From: Pisolithus tinctorius
Lineage: Eukaryota; Basidiomycota; Agaricomycetes; Boletales; Pisolithaceae
Direction: 5' to 3'
NCBI GenBank assembly: GCA_024663395.1
Contig: JANFAH010000031.1
Coordinates: forward strand, 620,001-684,000
DNA: 64,000 nucleotides
Position 1 is the stretch's first letter. Each line of letters begins with the position of its first letter. Made by a program: the position numbers and the translations under genes. Of this stretch, positions 24,566-34,971 are shown piece after piece. The notes under the pieces are model-generated. The model was not told where the DNA came from. It made no database searches and was given only the letters and a program-made list of their open reading frames with translations.

Positions 24566-26034
24566 TCAAGTGGGTTGTTTCTGAAGGGAGAAGTCTTTGG
24601 GGAAGTGTTTCTTATAAGTGGAGAGCATATCATCCGCATGTTCCAGGTGTGCTTCCTTTTGCCACAAGTTTTCTGATGAAGGATAACCCTTCCATTTGAT
24701 TAAAAAGGCGTGGCTGCAGCCAGACCTTTTGTGGCCAACTATCGCCTCAACCTTGTATTCCTCTTCCTCATTGACAAGGTCAGGTGGTGGAGCTGGGAAG
24801 TTCGGTCCGTGAATGTTATTTTCGCAATAGGGTGACAAAAGGGAAGCATGGAAGATGTCATGGATCCTCCATTGTGCAGGAATCAAAAGGCAGTAGGTTA
24901 TCGGAGATAGGACGTCAGAGATAGTGAAGGGTCCTTCTCATTTTGGGGCAAGCTTCCTATTTTCATAGGAGCATTTCAAATTTTGTGCTTCTAGCCAGAC
25001 TTTATCACCTTTCTGGAAGGGGGTGAAGGGTTGTGACGAGTGGTCTTTCATTGTTTTTCAGGCTAGGTCATGTGCCACAAGGGCTTCTTCTCTAGCCTTT
25101 CGGAGTTCCTCAAGTCTAGACTTGGTGGTGGGAAGGTGGGTATCTGCGATAAGGGACGGAAGGGGTTTCAGTTCATAGCTGTACATGAGGTAGAATGGCG
25201 ATTGATGGGTGATGGAGTGTGGGTGGTGGTTGTGCACAAATTCTGCCATGGGAAGGTTGTTTACCCATGAGGTGGGGTCATTTTGGCAAAAGATGTGGAG
25301 ATAGGTTTCCACCTCTTGGTTTATGCATTCAGTTTCTCTGTCGGTCTGAGGGTGATATGCTGTCAACAGGGCAAGGGAGTATCCCAGAAGGGAAGCAAGT
25401 TCTTTCGTGAAAACAGAGGCGAATTGAGGCCTCGATCAGATATAATTTTGTCATACAACCCAAAGTGGGAGTAGACTTTCTTGAAAAAGAGTGCTGCAAT
25501 GTTGGCAGCAGATGCAGTTTTCTTAGTTGGTGTTAAAATTACCCCCTTTGTAAGCCCATGGTCTACCACAACCAAAAGGGAATCAAACCTGTTAGAGACA
25601 GGAAGGTCAGTAACCAGATTGCAAGAGATCTGTTGGAAGGGGCAAGTTGAGGTCGAGTGGATGGGCATTAGGGGTGGTGTTGTTGGGTGGGTGTTAACCT
25701 TATTTTGCTGGCATGTGGCACAGCCTTCAATGTATTTTCAGACAAAGGACGCAAGTCCAGGCCACCAGTACTTGGACAAGACGAGCTGTTGGGTTTTCAA
25801 GACACCAGGGTGTCCAGCAGAGGGGTGGTCATGATGGTTGGACACGATGGTTTGTCAGAGGATGGGGTTGTCAGGGATGTACACCCGGTCCTTGTAGAGT
25901 AGAACTCCACTTTCAAACTTCCAGTCAAAGAGATGTGACTTGAATGGAAGTGGCATGTCGACATTTTCTATGGCACGAAGTGCTGTCTGGACAACCGGGT
26001 CTTTCTCGGATGAGGACACAACCTTGTGAGTGAG
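24566..26034 (-). pseudogene. Element B pol, 3' half: integrase and chromodomain
   Basis: The minus-strand frame resumes after insertion A with THKVVSSSEKDPVVQTALRA. It runs through the integrase zinc region (around 25,800-25,700), the catalytic core ([20 protein letters not shown] with Asp, IISDRGLNS with the second Asp), and after a frameshift near 25363 TAYHPQTDRETECINQEVE with the Glu region. Then come the GPFTI-type C-terminal domain and a chromodomain (EYKVEAIVGHKRSGCSH then AFLIKWKGYPSSENLWQKE) at about 24760-24610. In-frame TGA codons near 25058 (HDLA/KTMKD) and near 24940 (LAPK/EGPF) stand where Arg is expected. Chromodomains direct integration to heterochromatin in this lineage. Confidence 0.75.
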
Positions 26035-26748
26035 TGTCATAACCGTGTGTTCGTCATAAGTCTTTGCTCACTCTGCAACCTGTTCCGCCGGTCGTCCACT
26101 CACTCCACACCAACTCCGCCCAACTTCTGTTGGTTGTGAACCATCTCTGCTCTGACTGCTGTCAGACTTGTGTTGCTCTCCTACCAGACCGAGTGGTCCA
26201 TTCTCTGAGGGGTCATGTGACTACCTTCGCAGTCAGGTACTCCGCAGCGCGCTCACCGCATGGTCCAGCGCCTGGACTGTTTCCTTTTCTGGATGTTCTG
26301 TGTTACCCGTTCATATGTCCTCTGTCTACCCTTCATTTGTCATCCAGGAAGTTTTACTTGAAAATTTATGAGTCTCCATATGTCAGTTCCGATTCCAATT
26401 ACTGTACCTCCGTAGCAGTATAAAAACATGTACTGTACTCCGCTGTTCTTCAGTACGAATATCAACTTAGTTCCTACTCCCTCTGATTCCGTCTTCTGTC
26501 TGTTGGAGTTATCTCTGACTCTCCGTCTGTACTCTCCCTCTGAAATACGAGGGCTGAGATCATGCAAGGGGGTAGTGCACGAGCTAAACCTGACGCCCTC
26601 ACTCCGTTCTGCCTTTGCTTTGGCGGTCTTTGTCTCTGCCGACACTCCGCTAGTTGGAGTTCTGTTCCTGTGTGTCGGACTTGCTTCTGGACCCTCCTCT
26701 GGACCTTGTTTAGTGTCGGAGTTGGTTGGAGTAGGCCCGGACTTGACA
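26035..26748 (+). repeat. Element A 5' LTR
   Basis: It starts TGTCATAACC and ends GGACTTGACA. A TATA-like box (GTATAAAAACATG) sits around 26418-26430 and a GAAATACGAGGGCTGAG motif near 26540-26556. Nearly all differences from the 3' LTR are CG-to-TG or CG-to-CA transitions, for example near 26041-26053. The five bases before it, GTGAG, are one copy of the target duplication. Confidence 0.9.
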
Positions 26749-26810
26749 GTATATTCGTACTCACACTTGTACGATCTCGTTTTCTGTCTTCCAAAAAAAC
26801 TTACACTGTT

Positions 26811-28070
26811 ATGAGAACTCAAGCTCAATCCCAGAGAGAGGTCGCTGAGAACCTCGCTGTAGTGCTAGCTAATCTGCGTCGACTCCTGTCCATCGTTGAA
26901 CAGTTCCAATCATTCTCTGCTTGACGCCGCTCTCACGCTGAGGGCGAAAGTGCTTTGCAAGCTGGTCGCTCCGACCTCCACCCAACAACCTTCCATACTC
27001 CGTCTCCTCATAACCGAGATGATGGACCTGACCCCGACCCTGATTATCCTGATGGTGATCCTGATGGCAGGGGCAGTGGTGACGGGGATGTCCCCGAAGA
27101 CCCGGCTGAGCCACCAGAGGATCCACTCGTAGCTCTTGCTAGAGCTGTCCATGCGCTTGCACGGTCTAGTTCGTGCACTGGGGACTCCACTCCGAAAACC
27201 AAGGTCCGTGAGCCTGACACCATTGATGGCTCCGACCCTAAGAAACTCCGCGAGTTCCTTGTTCAATGCGAGCTGAACTTCCAAGACCGCCCTCACGCAT
27301 TCCGCTCTGACAGGGCAAAGGTTACCTTTGCTCAATCTTATCTTAAGGGCATGGCCCTGGCTTGGTTCGAGCCAGACCTACTAAAACCTGACAACTATGA
27401 CCACCCACTCTGGATGGACAACTACCATGAGTTCTTGCAAGAGCTCACAACTAATTTTGGTCCGCATGATGCCATAGCGGATGCTGTCCAACAACTTGAG
27501 AACCTCACCATGAAGGATGGTTCTTGAATTACCAAATACGTCGTGGAGTTCAATCGCTGGGCTTCACAGGTCAAGGACTACAGTGTTGGTGCACTCCGCC
27601 ACCGCTTCTATAGTGGACTTCCAGACCACATCAAGGACGAGATCGCTCGTGTTGGAAAACCTTCTACCCTCGCACAACTCCACGAACTCGCTCAGACCAT
27701 TGATGTGTGCTACTGGGAGCGCAAAGCGGAGGTCTCGTGCACCACCAAGTCCGCCTCCGACAAGTCACAGTCTTCCAACTCCAACAATAAACCTAAGACG
27801 TCGTCCTCCTCCTCCGCTCCAAAGTCCAACACCAAGGGCAAGGGCAAACAGAAAGATCTGCCCAAGTCCGATATTGCCCATCTTCTGGGCAAGGATGGCA
27901 AACTCACCTCTGCTGAATGACAGCGCAGGATGAAAAACAACCTCTACCTCTTCTGTGGCAAGGCTGGCCACTCTGCTAAGGACTGTCCCAAGTCCACCTC
28001 TTGCGCAGCCAAAGCCCATGCAGCTGCGGCTGGAACTCCACCTGCAGAGCAGGCAGAGCCAAAAAATTAG
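26811..28070 (+). pseudogene. Element A gag
   Basis: One frame of 419 codons from ATG 26811 (MRTQAQSQREVAENLAVVLA) to TAG 28068-28070. It is broken by three in-frame TGA codons at 26922, 27525 and 27918. It contains an acidic DPDPD-rich linker and the capsid-like region (KVREPDTIDGSDPKKLREFL, QSYLKGMALAWFEPDLL, EFNRWASQVKDYSVGALRHR, FYSGLPDHIKDEIARVGKP). A Ser/Lys-rich stretch follows, then a zinc knuckle whose first Cys is Tyr (YLFCGKAGHSAKDC). The TGA positions are compatible with former CGA Arg codons, for example AE-stop-QRRMKNN. Confidence 0.85.
28061..28067 (+). promoter_or_regulatory. Candidate -1 ribosomal frameshift site A_AAA_AAT
   Basis: In the gag frame the sequence reads CCA AAA AAT TAG. 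The heptamer A AAA AAT directly precedes the gag stop, and the protease/RT frame is exactly -1 relative to gag. Slippage at this heptamer would place ribosomes in the pol frame (AAA AAA TTA). This fits a programmed Gag-Pol frameshift. A simple decay indel in an A-run is the alternative. Confidence 0.45.
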
Positions 28071-31000
28071 TCCACTCCTCCAGGGAGCTCACACAGCCTG
28101 GAGGAAGTGTTGATACCAACTGTGTGCAACCGGACATCCAACTCAACGTGTCTGCTCTTTCTAGTCCCAATTCTTTACTTCCGTCTGTAGCTCTTCTTGA
28201 CTATTCTGTTGATACTGTTCCTGCGTTGATCGATTCTGGCTCTTCTCATTGTTTCATAGACCCATCTATAATCAAAAAATATGCCATTCCTGTTTCCTCC
28301 ATCTCTCCACCAATTCCGCTCTGCTTGTTTGATGGTAGTACAAATGCTGTCATTTCCCAAGAAGTAGATCTTTCCCTCCGCCTTCCTTCTGGCAATGTCA
28401 ACTCCGTTTCATTTTATGTTACTCCGTTGGATTCTTCGTGTTTGCTGGTATTAGGACACAACTGGCTCACCCGCTTCAATCCATCGATTGACTGGGTACT
28501 GGGCAGTATATTGTTGTCATGACCATGACACCAGCGTAAGCCCCTAACACCTACTCCGCCCTCTTCCGACATGTTCCCGCGCTTCTCCGCCCTCCTCCGA
28601 CGTGTTCCCACGCTCCTCCGACCCTCCCGACACATCTCCACACCTCTCCGAGGTCCCCCATCCATGTTCTGACCAACTCCGCTCAACTCCGCCCTAAGGT
28701 TGGTCACATGGGCTGTCGGACTTGCGGCCCTGCATTCTAGATAGGGTTCCGCCCTCGTGTCGGTTTTCTCCATTCTTCCGCTCCTTTGGTATTTACCCTC
28801 TCTTCCTTGTTGTAGTAGTTTCCTTGTCTTAGTTAAGGTCCCCGTCATCCCTACCCTCTATCCCTTGTGTCAGAAGGACTCTAACCCACTATACACTTAT
28901 TGGTTTACATTCCGTACTGCACTGCCCTTGGCCTACATCGTATATAAGGCCACGTAGTACTCCGATGTAATCAGTACGAATATCGAATAAAGTCCCCACC
29001 TTCAACTCCCTCTCAGTCCCCTCCGGAGTTTCATCTCCACTTCCTCTGAGTCCGCTCCACCTCTGAAATACGAGGGCTGAGCTCGCGCAAGGGGGCAGCG
29101 CACTAGCTGAACCCAACGCCCTCTCATCCGACCTCCGACCTCTGACCTCTGGCTCCGACTCTGACCTCAGCCTCCGAAACTTCCCTTCATACCCCTCCAC
29201 TCACTGTTCGTCGAATATCTCGCCACCCAGTGGTTGGATTCGCTTCGGACTTTGACCACTGTACTCCGCAGCCCAACCCGCTCCAACTCCGCCCTAAGAA
29301 GGAGCCAGGGGTGTTGTCCGACTTTGACAATTGTTCAAACTATTGCTACAGGGAATGCTGACACCCCAGGTGCCTTCGTCATCTTCCACTGCGACCTCCG
29401 CTCTGGATCCGACACCCTCTGCTCCATTTGCAGCTCCGACTGCACCTCTGACAGACTCGCCGCACTCTGCTCTGCTCGTCTCACTCATCAATGCTGCTGC
29501 ATATGTCAGAGCCTGTGCTCTCCCTGGCTCTAGACAGTTCTGCTTACAGCTCTCCACTGATGATGTGAAGCTTCATGCATCCTCTGCTTCTTCTCTGCCT
29601 CCTGACCTCTCCTCGGTTCCTCCTGAGTATCATGAGTTTGCTGATGTCTTTAGTAAAGACAAGGCCACAGAACTTCTGCCACACCACTCGTTCAATCTCA
29701 AGATCGACCTCGAGGAAGGAGCCTCTCCGCCCATTGGCACGATCTACTCTCTTCCTCTGCCAGAGCTTGAAGCTCTCCGCACCTTCATTGACGAGCATCT
29801 TGGCTACAGCTTCATCAAACAGTCCACCTCCGCTCATGGTGCCCCTGTCCTCTTTGTGAAAAAGAAGGACAGCTCACTCTGCCTCTGCGTAGACTACCGA
29901 GGACTCAATAAAATCACGAAAAAAGACCGCTATCCGCTGCTGCTCATCTCCGACCTACTCGACTCTCCAAGCCACGCTAAAGTCTACACCAAGATCGATC
30001 TCTGCCATGCCTATCATCTGGTCCACATAGCAGATGGAGATGAATGGAAAATGGCTTTCCACACTCATTATGGTTCTTACGAGTGGTGGGTGATGCCATT
30101 CGGTCTGACTAACGCGCCTGCAGCTTTCCAGTGATTCGTCAATAGCATCTTTGCAGACATGCTTGATGTCTGCATCGTGGTATACCTCGACGACATCCTA
30201 ATCTATTTGCAGGACATGGAGTCGCATCGTGAACACATAAAAGAGGTACTCCACTGCCTTCGAAAGCATGGCCTTTATGCCAAGCTGGAGAAGTGCGAGT
30301 TTCACTCTGACTCCGTTGAGTACCTTGGTTATGTTCTTTCCCCCTCTGGTCTCACCATGTCCACTGAGAAGGTTCAGGCAGTCTGCGACTGGCCTGAGCC
30401 ATGGAAGGTGCGAGATATCCAGTCTTTCCTCGGCTTCACAAATTTCTACAGACAATTCATTAATAACTACTCCGACATCATCGTTCCGCTCACTCACCTC
30501 ACGCGAAAGGGTGCTCCTTGGAACTTTTCCGAGGAGTGCTGCTCCACTTTCCTCCGCCTGAAGGATGCCTTCAGCTCCACTCCTGTTCTCACTCACTGGG
30601 TTCCTGACGCTCCGCTTACAGTTGAAACCGACGCCTCTGACTATGCCATTGCTGGCATTCTGTCAATCACCTGCTCCGATGGTGAACTCCGCCCAGTCGC
30701 TTTCTACTCTCGCACCATGATTGCGCCAGAACTCAACTATGATACCCACGACAAGGAGCTGTTGGCTATCTTCGAGGCCTTCTGCCATTGGCAGCATTAC
30801 TTAGAAGGCTCCACCTTACCTGTCGACATGGTGATGGACCACAAAAACCTTGAGTACTTTTCCACCTCTAAGGTTCTCACTCGTCGACAGGCCCACTGGT
30901 CGGAGTACCTTTCCCAGTTCAACCTTTCCATCTGCTTCCGACCTGGCCACCTTGGAGCCAAACCCGATGCACTTACGTGATGTTGGGACATCTACCCAAA

Positions 31001-32606
31001 AGGGGGGGATAGGGACTACGTGCAGGTAAATCCTCACAATCTCCGCCCTATGTTTACACAGGAGCAACTCGCATTGTCCCTCCATACCACCACCCTCTTG
31101 GCACCTGTACTCCACGCCACCATGGTCTTCGATGTTGAGTGCTTGCACTCCGACATCATCTCTGCCCTACCCTCTGACCCTGTCTCCGCCAGCCATCTCC
31201 CAACTCCGACTAAGCCTCAGTGGTCCCTGGACTCCGACAGTCTACTCCACCTTGATGGTCATATCTTTGTCCCTGACATCGATGACCTCTGCCTTCGAGT
31301 GCTTCGGTTCAAGCATGATCATCCTCTAGCAGGCCATTTCAGGCAAAACCGCACCCTAGAACTCGTCCGCAGGGACTACATGTGGCCCAACCTCCACTCT
31401 GATGTGAAAGAATATGTCAGGTCTTGCACCGCCTGTGGACAGAGCAAAACTCTGTGCCACCGCCCTTATGGTCTACTGAAGCAACTCCCCATCCCAGAGA
31501 GACCTTGGAACTCCATCTCCATGGACTTCATTGAACACCTCCCCAACTCTGATGGCTACTCCGCCATACTCGTGGTAGTGGACCGCCTCTCAAAGCAAGC
31601 GGTGTTCATCCCCACCCACGACTCTGTCACCTCTGCCGAACTCGCTAAGCTCTTTCTTACCCATGTCTTCTCCAAGCATGGAGTTCCAGCTAATGTCACC
31701 TCTGACAGAGGTCCTGAGTTCGTCTCACACTTCTTCCGCTCTTTAGGAAAGGCCCTTGATATGCATCTTCACTTCACTTCGGGTTACCACCCAGAAGGCG
31801 ATGGCCAGACCGAGCGAATGAACCAGACCCTCGAACAGTACCTTCGTGTCTACTGTAACTACCAACAAGACAACTGGGCTGAGCTGTTACCTCTAGCAGA
31901 GTTCGCTTTCAACAACGCACCAAGTGTGACTACTGGAGTTTCTCCCTTCTTCACTAACAAGGGATACCATCCAAACTTGTCTGTGGTCCCTGACCAAGAC
32001 TTCACCTCTCCAAGGGCTCATGACTACGTCGTCGAGCTCTCTGCCCTTCATGACTTCCTCTGCTCCGAAATGTCCACCGCTCAACAGCGCTACCAGGGTC
32101 CAGCAGATGCTAAATGCATACCTCTGCCTGAGTTCAAGGTCGGAGAACAGGCCTACGTCAAAGCCAAGTACTTCCGCTCCACTCATCCTTCAGAAAAACT
32201 CTCCGAAAAGTACTTAGGTCTGTTCACCATCCTGGCCAGGCCAGGTACGCATTCTGTCACCCTTAAGCTCCCTGACTCTATGTGCTCGGTACATCTGGTC
32301 TTCCATGTCTCACAACTGGACGCCGCAGCGGCTAACCCTTTCCCAAACTGACAACAACCTCTGCCTCCGCCAGTGGATGTCGATGGTGACCTTGAGTACG
32401 AAGTATCAGAGATACTCGACTCTAAGGTGGACCGCTGTCACTGCCACTGACAACTCTTGTATCTAGTCCGCTGGGCTGGTTACGAGAACACCAACGAAGA
32501 AACCTCTTGGTTGCTTGCAACTGAGCTAGATCATGCTTCCGACATAGTATCTGCTTTCCATGAACGCTATCCACACAAACCTGGCCCATACCAACCTCCG
32601 CCATAA
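28068..32606 (+). pseudogene. Element A pol: protease, RT, RNase H, integrase, chromodomain
   Basis: Interrupted at 28515-29329 by a solo LTR; excising it with one ATTGT restores the frame (WVLGSIL joined to FKLLLQGM). Protease active site: [38 protein letters not shown] and catalytic VVYLDDILIY. RNase H: ETDASDYAIAGIL and THDKELLAIFEAF. Integrase: zinc region ending SCTACGQSK; core SMDFIEHLP, TSDRGPEFVSHFF and GYHPEGDGQTERMNQTLEQY (Asp, Asp, Glu). The chromodomain follows at about 32382-32590 (EYEVSEILDSK, LYLVRWAGYENTNEETSWL). In-frame TGA codons at 30132, 30978, 32349 and 32448 replace expected Arg codons; no other premature stop is present. True stop TAA at 32604. Confidence 0.88.
28515..29329 (+). 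repeat. Solo LTR (A-related family) inside element A
   Basis: It begins TGTCATGACC and ends GACTTTGACA, like the LTRs of A. It is flanked by a perfect target duplication ATTGT (28510-28514 and 29330-29334). It shares motifs with the A LTR (GTACGAATATC; CTCTGAAATACGAGGGCTGAG; CAAGGGGG then AGCTGAACC) but is longer (815 bp) and clearly diverged. No internal region remains, so it is a solo LTR left by LTR-LTR recombination of a second, related element. Confidence 0.88.
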
Positions 32607-32810
32607 TACTCTGCCTACATAAACCTCCTCCACAGGCCAACTCTGCCTCTTACTGAACTACCTTAAGTACTTTAGAATTTTCTCCGCTTATCTGTTTCAC
32701 TTCTCAGAGTCACAAACAAAATCACAAGTCTATCTCATAGTAATACAAAATATACAAACTAAAGACAAAAAAAAAAAAAAGAGAAAAAGAAAAAACAAAA
32801 CAAAACAACT

Positions 32811-34059
32811 CTACTCTTCCATCGCTTGCTCTCCGCCACCCTCCTGTTCTTCACCGCCTTCCTGCTCTCCTTCGACTTCTTCCTCGTTATCCCCCTCTGC
32901 ACCTTCATCCACTTCCTCTCGCTGGTCCTCTGCCACCTCTGACTGAGGCCTTTTCCAACCTCCTCCCATGCACTCGAGTTCAGCCAGTCTGGCTTCGTGC
33001 GCGTCTTCCCTCCTCCTCATCTCTGCCCACTCCGCCCACTCATGGTACAGCCCCCACTTGTTGGCTATCTGCTCCACGGCCTCTGCCATCCGCTCCACTG
33101 CCCTTGCCATCCTCTCGAAGGCTGTTGCAGCCTTCTCGTGTGCTGCTGCGTACCTCTCTGCAGCCTGCAGCTGCCACTCCCACTCCCACTCCGTCCACCA
33201 GGAGGAGACCCCTGCTCCTGAGGGTCCCTCGTGCGGTGTTGCTGGCTCCTCCTCGTCTTCTCCTCCTATCTCCCACTCGTCGTCTGCTTCTTCCGTCTCT
33301 GTCGCTCTCTCCTTTCCCTTCCCTTGCACCCTCTTCTTCTTCTCCCCTCGGGAACTTCCCATCCCTGCCCTCTTTCGCAGAGGTCCCACCACTGCCTCTT
33401 CCCGCGTCCAGCTGCACGTCTTTTTCTTGTTGTGACAGGGCATGCAGGCCCTGGTCTTGCCCTGCCCTGGCTCGCACTGGCCTGCTGTCAGACTCGCTAC
33501 GCAGCGAGTGCAAGGTGGCCTCCTGGTAGTGGTGACCACCACAGAGGTCCCAGGGACCCTCTGGGTGGTGTTGACATCATACACTGTGCCGCTTAGCCTG
33601 AAATGAAGGAAGGGTAAAATACAAGTCAACTCCGCCTGACTCGCAGTGCTTTGTCACTCACTTTTGTGTGGCCTCATCCCACCTGGCCTGAGCCTGCTCC
33701 TGGGAGGCCCTCTGCCTCTGCCTCTCGGCCTCCTCCGCCGCCACTTTCTGCTTCTGCCTCTCGGCCTCTTCCTCTGCCACCTTCTTCCTCTGAGCTTCCT
33801 CCTCTTCTCTCTGCCTCTGCTCCGCCTCCAGTCGTGCCTCCTCCACCTTTCGTCATCTGGCCTCCTCTCGTTTGGCCTTGCGCTCCCTCTCTTTCTGCTC
33901 CGCCTCCTCCCTCCAATGGGTCTTCTCCACGTTTTTCTCGTGCTTGGTGTCAGTTGAGTCATCAGTGAGGACGACCAATGCGTCATCCGTGACTTGTGAG
34001 TAGTCGTGGGGGTGGCCTGGGGTTGGTTAGGGGGTTGTGTTCTCGCGCTGGACGGACAT
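32811..34059 (-). pseudogene. Antisense gene of element A: coiled-coil plus Zn2Cys6-like cluster
   Basis: Minus strand, opposite to pol, between the chromodomain and the 3' LTR. Exon 1 is 34059-33662 (start MSVQRENTTP), followed by a 64-nt intron (GTGAGT...TTTCAG). Exon 2 is 33597-32811. Total 394 aa in frame if two premature stops are ignored: a TAA at about codon 11 and a TGA after EEAR. Residues about 60-132 form a highly charged coiled coil (EEARLEAEQRQREEEEAQ). Then comes C-x2-C-x8-C-x9-C-x2-C-x6-C (from PPCTRC to KKKTCSW), close to the fungal Zn2Cys6 spacing. An acidic/basic middle, a second helical region (ERMARAVERMAEAVEQI) and a Glu/Gly-rich tail follow. It could be a DNA-binding regulator encoded by the retrotransposon; function is unproven. 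Confidence 0.65.
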
Positions 34060-34252
34060 GATGATGGGAGGAAGGGACGAAGGTTCAGTACCCTAACACG
34101 CGTTTTTAAGCGGTACTTCGAACTCTGACGGAGCTCTGCCATGGCTAAAGCCATCATCCTCGAGGCATCAAAATAATTTCAAATGATCAACTCGTGTTGA
34201 TCTCATCCTGTACATGCGGCCTTCAGGGGTTCAGGCCCTAAGGGGGGGGCAC

Positions 34253-34966
34253 TGTCATAACCATGCATTCGTCATAAGTCTTTGCTCACTCCACAACCTT
34301 TTCTGCCAGTCGTCCGCTCACTCTGCACCAACTCCGCCCAACTTCTGTTGGTTGTGAACCATCTCCGCTCCGACTGCTGTCGGACTTGTGTTGCTCTCCT
34401 ACCAGACCGAGCGGTCCGTTCTCTGAGGGGTCATGTGACTACCTTCGCAGTCAGGTACTCCGCAGCGTGCTCACCGCATGGTCCAGCACCTGGACTGTTT
34501 CCTTTTCTGGATGTTCTGTGTTACCTGTTCATATGTCCTCTGTCTACCCTTCATTTGTCATCCAGGAAGTTTTACTTGAAAATTTATGAATCTCCGTATG
34601 TCAGTTCTGATTCCGATTACTGTACCTCCATAGCAGTATAAAAACATGTACTGTACTCCGCTGTTCTTCAGTACAAACATCAACTTAGTTCCTACTCCCT
34701 CTGATTCCGTCTTCTGTCTGTCGGAGTTATCTCTGACTCTCCGTCTGTACTCTCCCTCTGAAATACGAGGGCTGAGATCATGCAAGGGGGTAGTGCACGA
34801 GCTAAACCTGACGCCCTCACTCCGTTCCGCCTTTGCTTCAGCGGTCTTTGTCTCTGCCAACACTCCGCTAGTCGGAGTTCTGTTCCTGTGTGTCAGACTT
34901 GCTTCCAGACCCTCCTCTGGACCTTGTTTAGCGTCGGAGTTGGTCGGAGTAGGCCCAGACTTGACA
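34253..34966 (+). repeat. Element A 3' LTR
   Basis: It starts TGTCATAACC and ends AGACTTGACA, 714 bp like the 5' LTR. It is immediately preceded by a polypurine tract (AAGGGGGGGGCAC at about 34240-34252) and followed by the target duplication GTGAG at 34967-34971. Confidence 0.9.
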
Positions 34967-34971
34967 GTGAG

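Follow-up and report, generated by a model that had tools for sequence, protein, structure and literature searches.

An antisense gene with conserved spliceosomal intron signals in a chromodomain Gypsy retrotransposon family of Pisolithus tinctorius

Element A and its antisense gene

The window analysed here is a 64,000-nt stretch of DNA from Pisolithus tinctorius, part of contig 31 of the 92.5-Mb assembly that was searched for further copies. It contains element A, a chromodomain Ty3/Gypsy retrotransposon spanning 26035-34966 with LTRs of 714 bp, whose parts are as follows.

26030-26034, target-site duplication GTGAG (5 bp), 5′ side of element A
26035-26748, + strand, 5′ LTR (TGTCAT...TTGACA), located by BLAST with the ends trimmed by eye (BLAST overran 2 bases)
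26925-27527, + strand, gag fragment, DUF4939 / Ty3_capsid-like, frame broken in the window copy
27980-28510, + strand, protease part of pol (RVP_2)
28510-28514 and 29330-29334, ATTGT duplications around the solo LTR
28515-29329, + strand, solo LTR (TGTCAT...TTGACA) derived from a related element; in the window copy it interrupts pol
29337-30977, + strand, reverse transcriptase (RT) and RNase H part of pol
30981-32605, + strand, integrase (IN; H2C2, rve, SH3_Tf2-1) followed by the chromodomain region
34253-34966, + strand, 3′ LTR
34967-34971, target-site duplication GTGAG, 3′ side of element A

The window copy is broken, and a longer gag with a CCHC knuckle was recognised by eye in better-kept copies (L027 and L028; L numbers denote other genomic copies of the element A family). 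The chromodomain (PF00385) scored 30.8 bits against a Pfam cut-off of 25.1 in copy L027 rather than in the window copy. The order RT-RNase H-IN, with the chromodomain after IN, is that of a chromovirus. Element A is like other fungal chromodomain Gypsy elements in having a gag CCHC knuckle (again by eye), protease, RT, RNase H, IN and chromodomain and in its 5-bp target duplication, but it is unlike them in carrying an extra antisense gene and a dispersed CTCCG motif.

Several other observations concern the element as a whole. The solo LTR and the element A LTR have a 71-bp stretch in common that is 84% identical. A second polypurine run, CCCAAAAGGGGGGGATAGGGACT, lies in pol at 30994-31018, and 19 of the 20 longer loci share its best 20-mers exactly; it is possibly a central polypurine tract, or possibly the product of coding constraint alone. 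The LTR palindrome ACTCCGCNNNTCGGAGT, with 2 mismatches, has 1745 sites in the genome compared with 447 for the reversed control. At L026 and L022 the element was matched in several displaced pieces, which suggests that the family has been rearranged or nested within itself. Neither an Rfam search of 13 kb nor a scan of the window for tRNAs gave a match.

The antisense gene lies between pol and the 3′ LTR and has two exons.

33662-34059, − strand, exon 1, ATG at 34059, two in-frame stops in the window copy
34027-34029 and 33853-33855, the in-frame stops of exon 1 in the window copy, codons 11 and 69
33598-33661, − strand, intron, GTGAGT...AG, 64 nt in the window copy and 54-78 nt in others
32811-33597, − strand, exon 2, open in the window copy

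A previous reading of the window, made from its letters alone (the sequence-only reading), had described a two-exon gene at 32811-34059, on the strand opposite to pol, with a 64-nt intron (GTGAGT...TTTCAG). We confirmed the ATG at 34059 on the − strand, the GTGAGT donor at 33661, the TTTCAG acceptor ending at 33598, the stop codon ending at 32811 (395 codons counting the stop) and the placement between pol and the 3′ LTR. The claim that the frame was consistent over 394 codons had to be corrected: exon 1 of the window copy contains the two in-frame stops listed above. We conclude that the window copy of the gene is dead and that the two-exon gene itself is real. Immediately past the antisense stop, the pol strand carries an A-rich stretch (32767-32806, T-rich on the gene strand) that is possibly an antisense 3′ end signal or a relic of the joining of the gene.

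Copies of the gene and selection on its frame

A DNA search of the genome returned 394 candidate places and scored 40 of them, each at E≤2.5e-300; with exon 2 as the query of a protein search there were 503 candidates and 146 scored matches, each at E≤4.6e-120. Conserved words were also counted across the whole genome with up to 3 mismatches, yielding 343 sites for the chromodomain end, 308 for the gene and 394 for the polypurine tract (PPT), with no match to the reversed control. The spacing between chromodomain and PPT was measured on the first 100 matches of each word among the matches listed, all of which were exact. For 65 of the 100 listed chromodomain sites a listed PPT site lay at most 6 kb downstream; the distance was 1.5-2.0 kb in 56 of these pairs, shorter (893-1437 bp) in 6 and longer in 3, and the spacing of a gene-less copy (0.45-0.5 kb) was not found among the 65 pairs listed. 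These counts and distances are indirect evidence that the antisense gene is present in most family copies, in that they show the spacing and not the gene place by place. The gene and its flanks align in all 20 longer loci (two of which are duplicates of each other), and in these loci, as in the window, the gene is antisense and between pol and the 3′ LTR, which is the placement of an aORF-3R. In the longer copies examined, the gene, which we take to be an accessory gene belonging to the family, is shown to lie in antisense orientation between pol and the 3′ LTR.

The window and 38 further copies, together representing 39 of the 40 places scored in the DNA search, were aligned for the coding tests, and three rows were dropped as duplicates (L011, 100% identical to L012; L045, 100% to L046; and L036, 99.6% to L038), leaving 36 distinct copies. 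The donor GT is present in 36 of 36 copies, the acceptor AG in 35 and the ATG in 35, with one copy having no acceptor AG and one no ATG. By a loose pattern, 35 of the 36 introns contain a branch-like sequence, and no intron-less copy was found among the aligned copies. Spliced length is a multiple of three in 31 of 36 copies, compared with 19 of 36 for unspliced length, and 215 of the 216 Cys cells of a six-cysteine cluster are kept. Only 3 of 36 copies combine intact length with freedom from internal stops; in the length-intact rows (duplicates still included) 100 of 106 internal stops are TGA, an excess expected from CpG decay, of which TGA is a product. The proportion of indels that are multiples of three, computed over pairs of the 36 rows that are not independent, is 78% in exon 1, 88% in exon 2 and 91% in the exon 2 tail, as against 42% in the intron and 11% in the 5′ UTR. 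Among CpG-free columns in all 39 rows, 14% and 15% are variable at codon positions 1 and 2, 44% at position 3 and 53% in the intron. Together, this exon structure and substitution pattern are more than chance.

Because the copies are heavily CpG-decayed, CpG-type changes were omitted from the test of nonsynonymous against synonymous change (N/S), which counts all copy pairs, so that the counts are not independent. The CpG-corrected, normalised N/S in the gene frame was 0.175 (0.206 for exon 1 and 0.153 for exon 2), compared with 1.80 and 1.30 in the wrong frames and 0.50-0.87 for the intron read as codons. The sequence-only reading had staked its gene on a dN/dS away from 1 and on homologues that share the exon structure: the ratio across copies is about 0.17, not near 1, and the same structure recurs in the copies.

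The three pol-strand frames over exon 2 gave N/S values of 1.98, 0.271 and 1.89, and the low value was examined with a joint test of both overlapping frames. Changes silent in both frames occurred at 44.1 per 1000 opportunities and those silent in the antisense frame and changing the pol-strand frame at 34.3, whereas those changing the antisense frame and silent in the pol-strand frame occurred at 11.6 and those changing both at 10.6. The pol-strand value of 0.271 mirrors the antisense frame, with little or no constraint of its own, and what is constrained is the antisense protein rather than the pol-strand frame that overlaps it. We conclude that the spliceosomal intron signals are conserved and that the protein encoded on the antisense strand is under purifying selection.

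When the window was combined with the 19 distinct longer loci (20 copies), the antisense gene had an N/S of 0.156, about twice as relaxed as the other element genes (0.078 for gag in 13 copies, 0.074 for RT/RNase H in 17 and 0.094 for IN in 18); pol 29329-30131 read one base out of frame, at 1.345, behaves as a wrong-frame control. Mean non-CpG distance in 15 copies was 0.076 for the gene region with intron and flanks, 0.025 for IN and 0.027 for RT. In the same number of copies the gene-IN distance correlation was weak (Spearman 0.20; IN-RT 0.31), perhaps as a result of recombination among copies.

Encoded protein, candidate promoter and dispersed motif

The translated product would be about 390 aa long. 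Its features, in protein order, and those upstream of its ATG are listed here.

33662-33924, − strand, N-terminal charged long helix, residues ~46-133, assigned by composition
33414-33512, − strand, six-cysteine cluster C-x2-C-x8-C-x9-C-x2-C-x6-C, residues 162-194
33330-33374, − strand, basic patch like a bipartite nuclear localisation signal, residues 208-222
32961-33209, − strand, C-terminal long helix (Trp-rich), residues ~263-345, then an acidic tail
34102-34110, − strand, TATA-like CTTAAAAAC in the invariant block
34093-34252, no strand assigned, nearly invariant 160-bp block from the 3′ LTR to the antisense 5′ UTR, with the polypurine tract inside

AlphaFold2 predicted two long helices at high confidence, with the N-terminal helix at 35-109 in the relative P0002, and gave the Cys region low confidence (block-mean pLDDT ~29-59). 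The basic patch, identified by the bipartite nuclear-signal motif, is present in 29 of 31 in-frame copies, and a stop falls inside it in at least L009 and L014.

The cysteine spacing given by the sequence-only reading is correct, whereas membership in the fungal Zn2Cys6 family, to whose cluster it likened this spacing, is not borne out. Zn2Cys6 proteins of the Gal4 type have six Cys in two C-x2-C halves, with a coiled coil in the same protein; their spacing is C-x2-C-x6-C-x5-12-C-x2-C-x6-8-C, and the cluster folds around two zinc ions and recognises CGG half-sites. The antisense protein is like them (PF00172) in its second half, C-x2-C-x6-C with lysines, and in its coiled coil. It is unlike them in having the cluster mid-protein, in the first half, where the loop is x8 instead of x6 and departs from the family spacing, and in the lack of basic residues between Cys2 and Cys3. 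PF00172 was not matched in three spliced copies at E≤1 or in window exon 2 at E≤0.01. With no profile match and a different spacing, membership in the Zn2Cys6 transcription-factor family is not supported. Regulation through binding of DNA or RNA would still be the likeliest function of the protein.

No Pfam family was found above its cut-off in the three spliced copies or in window exon 2; matches to CarbopepD_reg_2 and GPR15L in one of the three spliced copies were far under the cut-offs. Searches of ncbifam and of solved structures gave chance-level matches only. In three protein searches based on shared 5-residue words, all matches (58 of 58, 32 of 32 and 57 of 57) were from P. tinctorius, and no homologue was found outside this species; distant relatives could be missed because the searches need such shared words, and one of them scored the 7991 candidates with the most words in common. 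The 60 protein models retrieved include 55 with a gene-like start, 42 with the same exon-junction pattern and 17 with the full cluster, and several database models omit stretches of the antisense gene.

The block at 34093-34252 stands out upstream of the ATG: 8 of its 125 non-CpG columns are variable in 35 copies, compared with 14 of 29 over the adjoining 36 bp toward and including the ATG. CTTAAA-type TATA-like boxes occur in 32 of the 35 copies. These sequence features make the block a candidate antisense promoter, and sense-strand functions may share its constraint, the polypurine tract being inside it.

Under an order-2 Markov model, no strand-specific 5-mer of the element body is more over-represented than CTCCG (73 seen and 25 expected in L027), which also ranks first in L028 and L016, the other two of three copies examined. 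Together with CGGAG it accounts for 23.1% of the L027 CpGs and 21.8% of those in the window element, compared with 2.9% in the rest of the window, and in L027 the pol strand is favoured by 116 to 15. At 18 LTR sites (each in at least 3 rows) the motif is intact or one CpG step off in 16-19 of 19 LTRs. In the L027 body, CTC before CG differs at 5.3%, compared with 9.5% for other pyrimidine-ended triplets and 11.9% for purine-ended ones; with L028 as reference the values are 5.9, 9.6 and 7.8. The corresponding values for the 3′ LTR are 7.9, 10.0 and 17.2 with L027 and 2.6, 10.4 and 13.0 with L028. The extra conservation of CTCCG is therefore modest and dependent on the reference. Everted CGG pairs are enriched in the 3′ LTR and not the 5′ LTR of the window element, and inverted pairs in neither.

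Three simple accounts of the motif were considered. Protection from CpG decay was rejected, with CG retention of 0.318 in CTCCG, 0.318 in other CCG and 0.362 in non-CCG contexts. An amino-acid effect is unlikely, as all three codon phases are used (phase 2 most commonly). The idea of a plain double-stranded transcription-factor site is weakened by the strand bias, which argues for recognition on single-stranded nucleic acid rather than at a classical double-stranded DNA site.

Differences between the two LTRs of a copy were compared in 13 rows (the window and 12 loci, of which L011 and L012 are duplicates). They are mostly CpG-type, with 0-5 non-CpG differences per ~715 bp in 12 of 13 rows and 37 in L020. 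A Gypsy expansion in P. tinctorius and LTR dates with a peak at 25-30 MY have been reported (PMC5689174). For the element A family, dates from raw LTR divergence are probably inflated, and because LTR divergence is dominated by CpG changes, the old ages published for Gypsy elements of P. tinctorius may have to be revised.

Possible functions of the antisense gene

The proposal that the element carries its own regulator is strongly supported in one part, a conserved antisense gene of its own, and unsupported in the other, a Zn2Cys6 transcription factor. Antisense accessory genes are known in plant LTR elements and in retroviruses, and a review describes their functions in retrotransposons as unknown (PMC7264820). 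The aORF-3R group includes Grande gene23, RIRE2 and Retand, with a TRP28 domain, and Boty in Botrytis and Sclerotinia (PMC11963269); in the main text of that paper the words 'intron' and 'zinc' do not occur. The likeness of the P. tinctorius gene to aORF-3R is one of position and antisense orientation, and the gene differs in being spliced (by its signals), in encoding a coiled coil with a Cys6 cluster and in residing in a basidiomycete chromodomain element. The antisense gene was not described in the titles and abstract beginnings of the papers listed, and we do not claim that it is absent from print.

Other parallels are HBZ of HTLV-1 and APH of HTLV-2, spliced antisense genes near the 3′ LTR that encode nuclear proteins (PMC3185765). 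The P. tinctorius gene is like them, as far as sequence tells, in being antisense near the 3′ LTR with conserved splice signals. Whereas HBZ contains a bZIP domain and begins within the 3′ LTR, the P. tinctorius gene has a Cys6 cluster and an ATG ~190 bp outside the LTR, and Pfam bZIP was not matched in the three spliced copies or window exon 2. HBZ is reported to inhibit activation of the LTR (PMC3185765), and by analogy the P. tinctorius protein might do likewise.

We lean towards the view that the gene encodes an HBZ-like accessory nuclear protein that acts in trans on its own element. Its transcription would start at a promoter of its own, within the conserved block next to the 3′ LTR, and the transcript would then be spliced and translated. 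The protein would dimerise via its two long helices and be carried into the nucleus by the basic patch, where the six-cysteine cluster, probably binding zinc, would contact nucleic acid. Acting in trans, the protein would most likely restrain or switch the expression driven by the 5′ LTR, or else packaging or integration; more speculatively, it might target the CTCCG motif with which the element is saturated.

An appreciable but smaller chance is given to a product that is a structural particle factor, functioning in assembly, nuclear import or integration targeting, and not a regulator of expression. The long helices, basic patch and acidic tail are what such a factor might have, and a review that considers accessory roles of plant antisense ORFs also brings up nuclear entry of the pre-integration complex (PMC7264820). 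However, gag already has a CCHC knuckle (by eye) and integrase a chromodomain, and a separate antisense promoter would uncouple the protein from gag-pol dosage.

It is rather unlikely that the antisense transcript, and not the protein, is what matters, pairing with gag-pol RNA and feeding silencing or attenuation. The retained splice signals do imply such a transcript, and it has been pointed out that the antisense transcripts of LTR elements might function as dsRNA (PMC7264820). Constraint nevertheless tracks codon positions and the six cysteines, and a pure RNA role would not hold indels to multiples of three, although both roles can coexist.

That the gene is a recently captured host transcription-factor gene riding as a passenger, as its intron and its likeness to a fungal Cys6 cluster might suggest, is very improbable given the failure of the three 5-residue-word searches to find a homologue outside P. 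tinctorius and an N/S of ~0.17, which shows that it is no neutral passenger. A chance open frame, or a mirror image, in GC-rich sequence, of an ORF on the pol strand, is hardly conceivable: a 261-aa pol-strand stop-to-stop frame does overlap exon 2 and one pol-strand frame is also low in N/S, but splice signals, frame and cysteines are kept across copies and the joint-frame test rules it out.

A more specific form of the accessory nuclear protein, which we regard as improbable yet worth stating, is a self-recognition system in which a nuclear or particle-associated Cys6 protein reads the strand-biased CTCCG(C/A), repeated ~130 times over the LTRs and body. If this were true, one trans-acting protein would mark every copy, its RNA or its cDNA, for regulation or packaging.

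The antisense gene shows a way for a retroelement to keep an intron: the genomic RNA does not carry the intron's signals, and splicing of this RNA therefore leaves the intron in place. With a family of a few hundred copies, measurable selection on a spliced gene and a dispersed motif, element A offers a tractable case in an ectomycorrhizal fungus.
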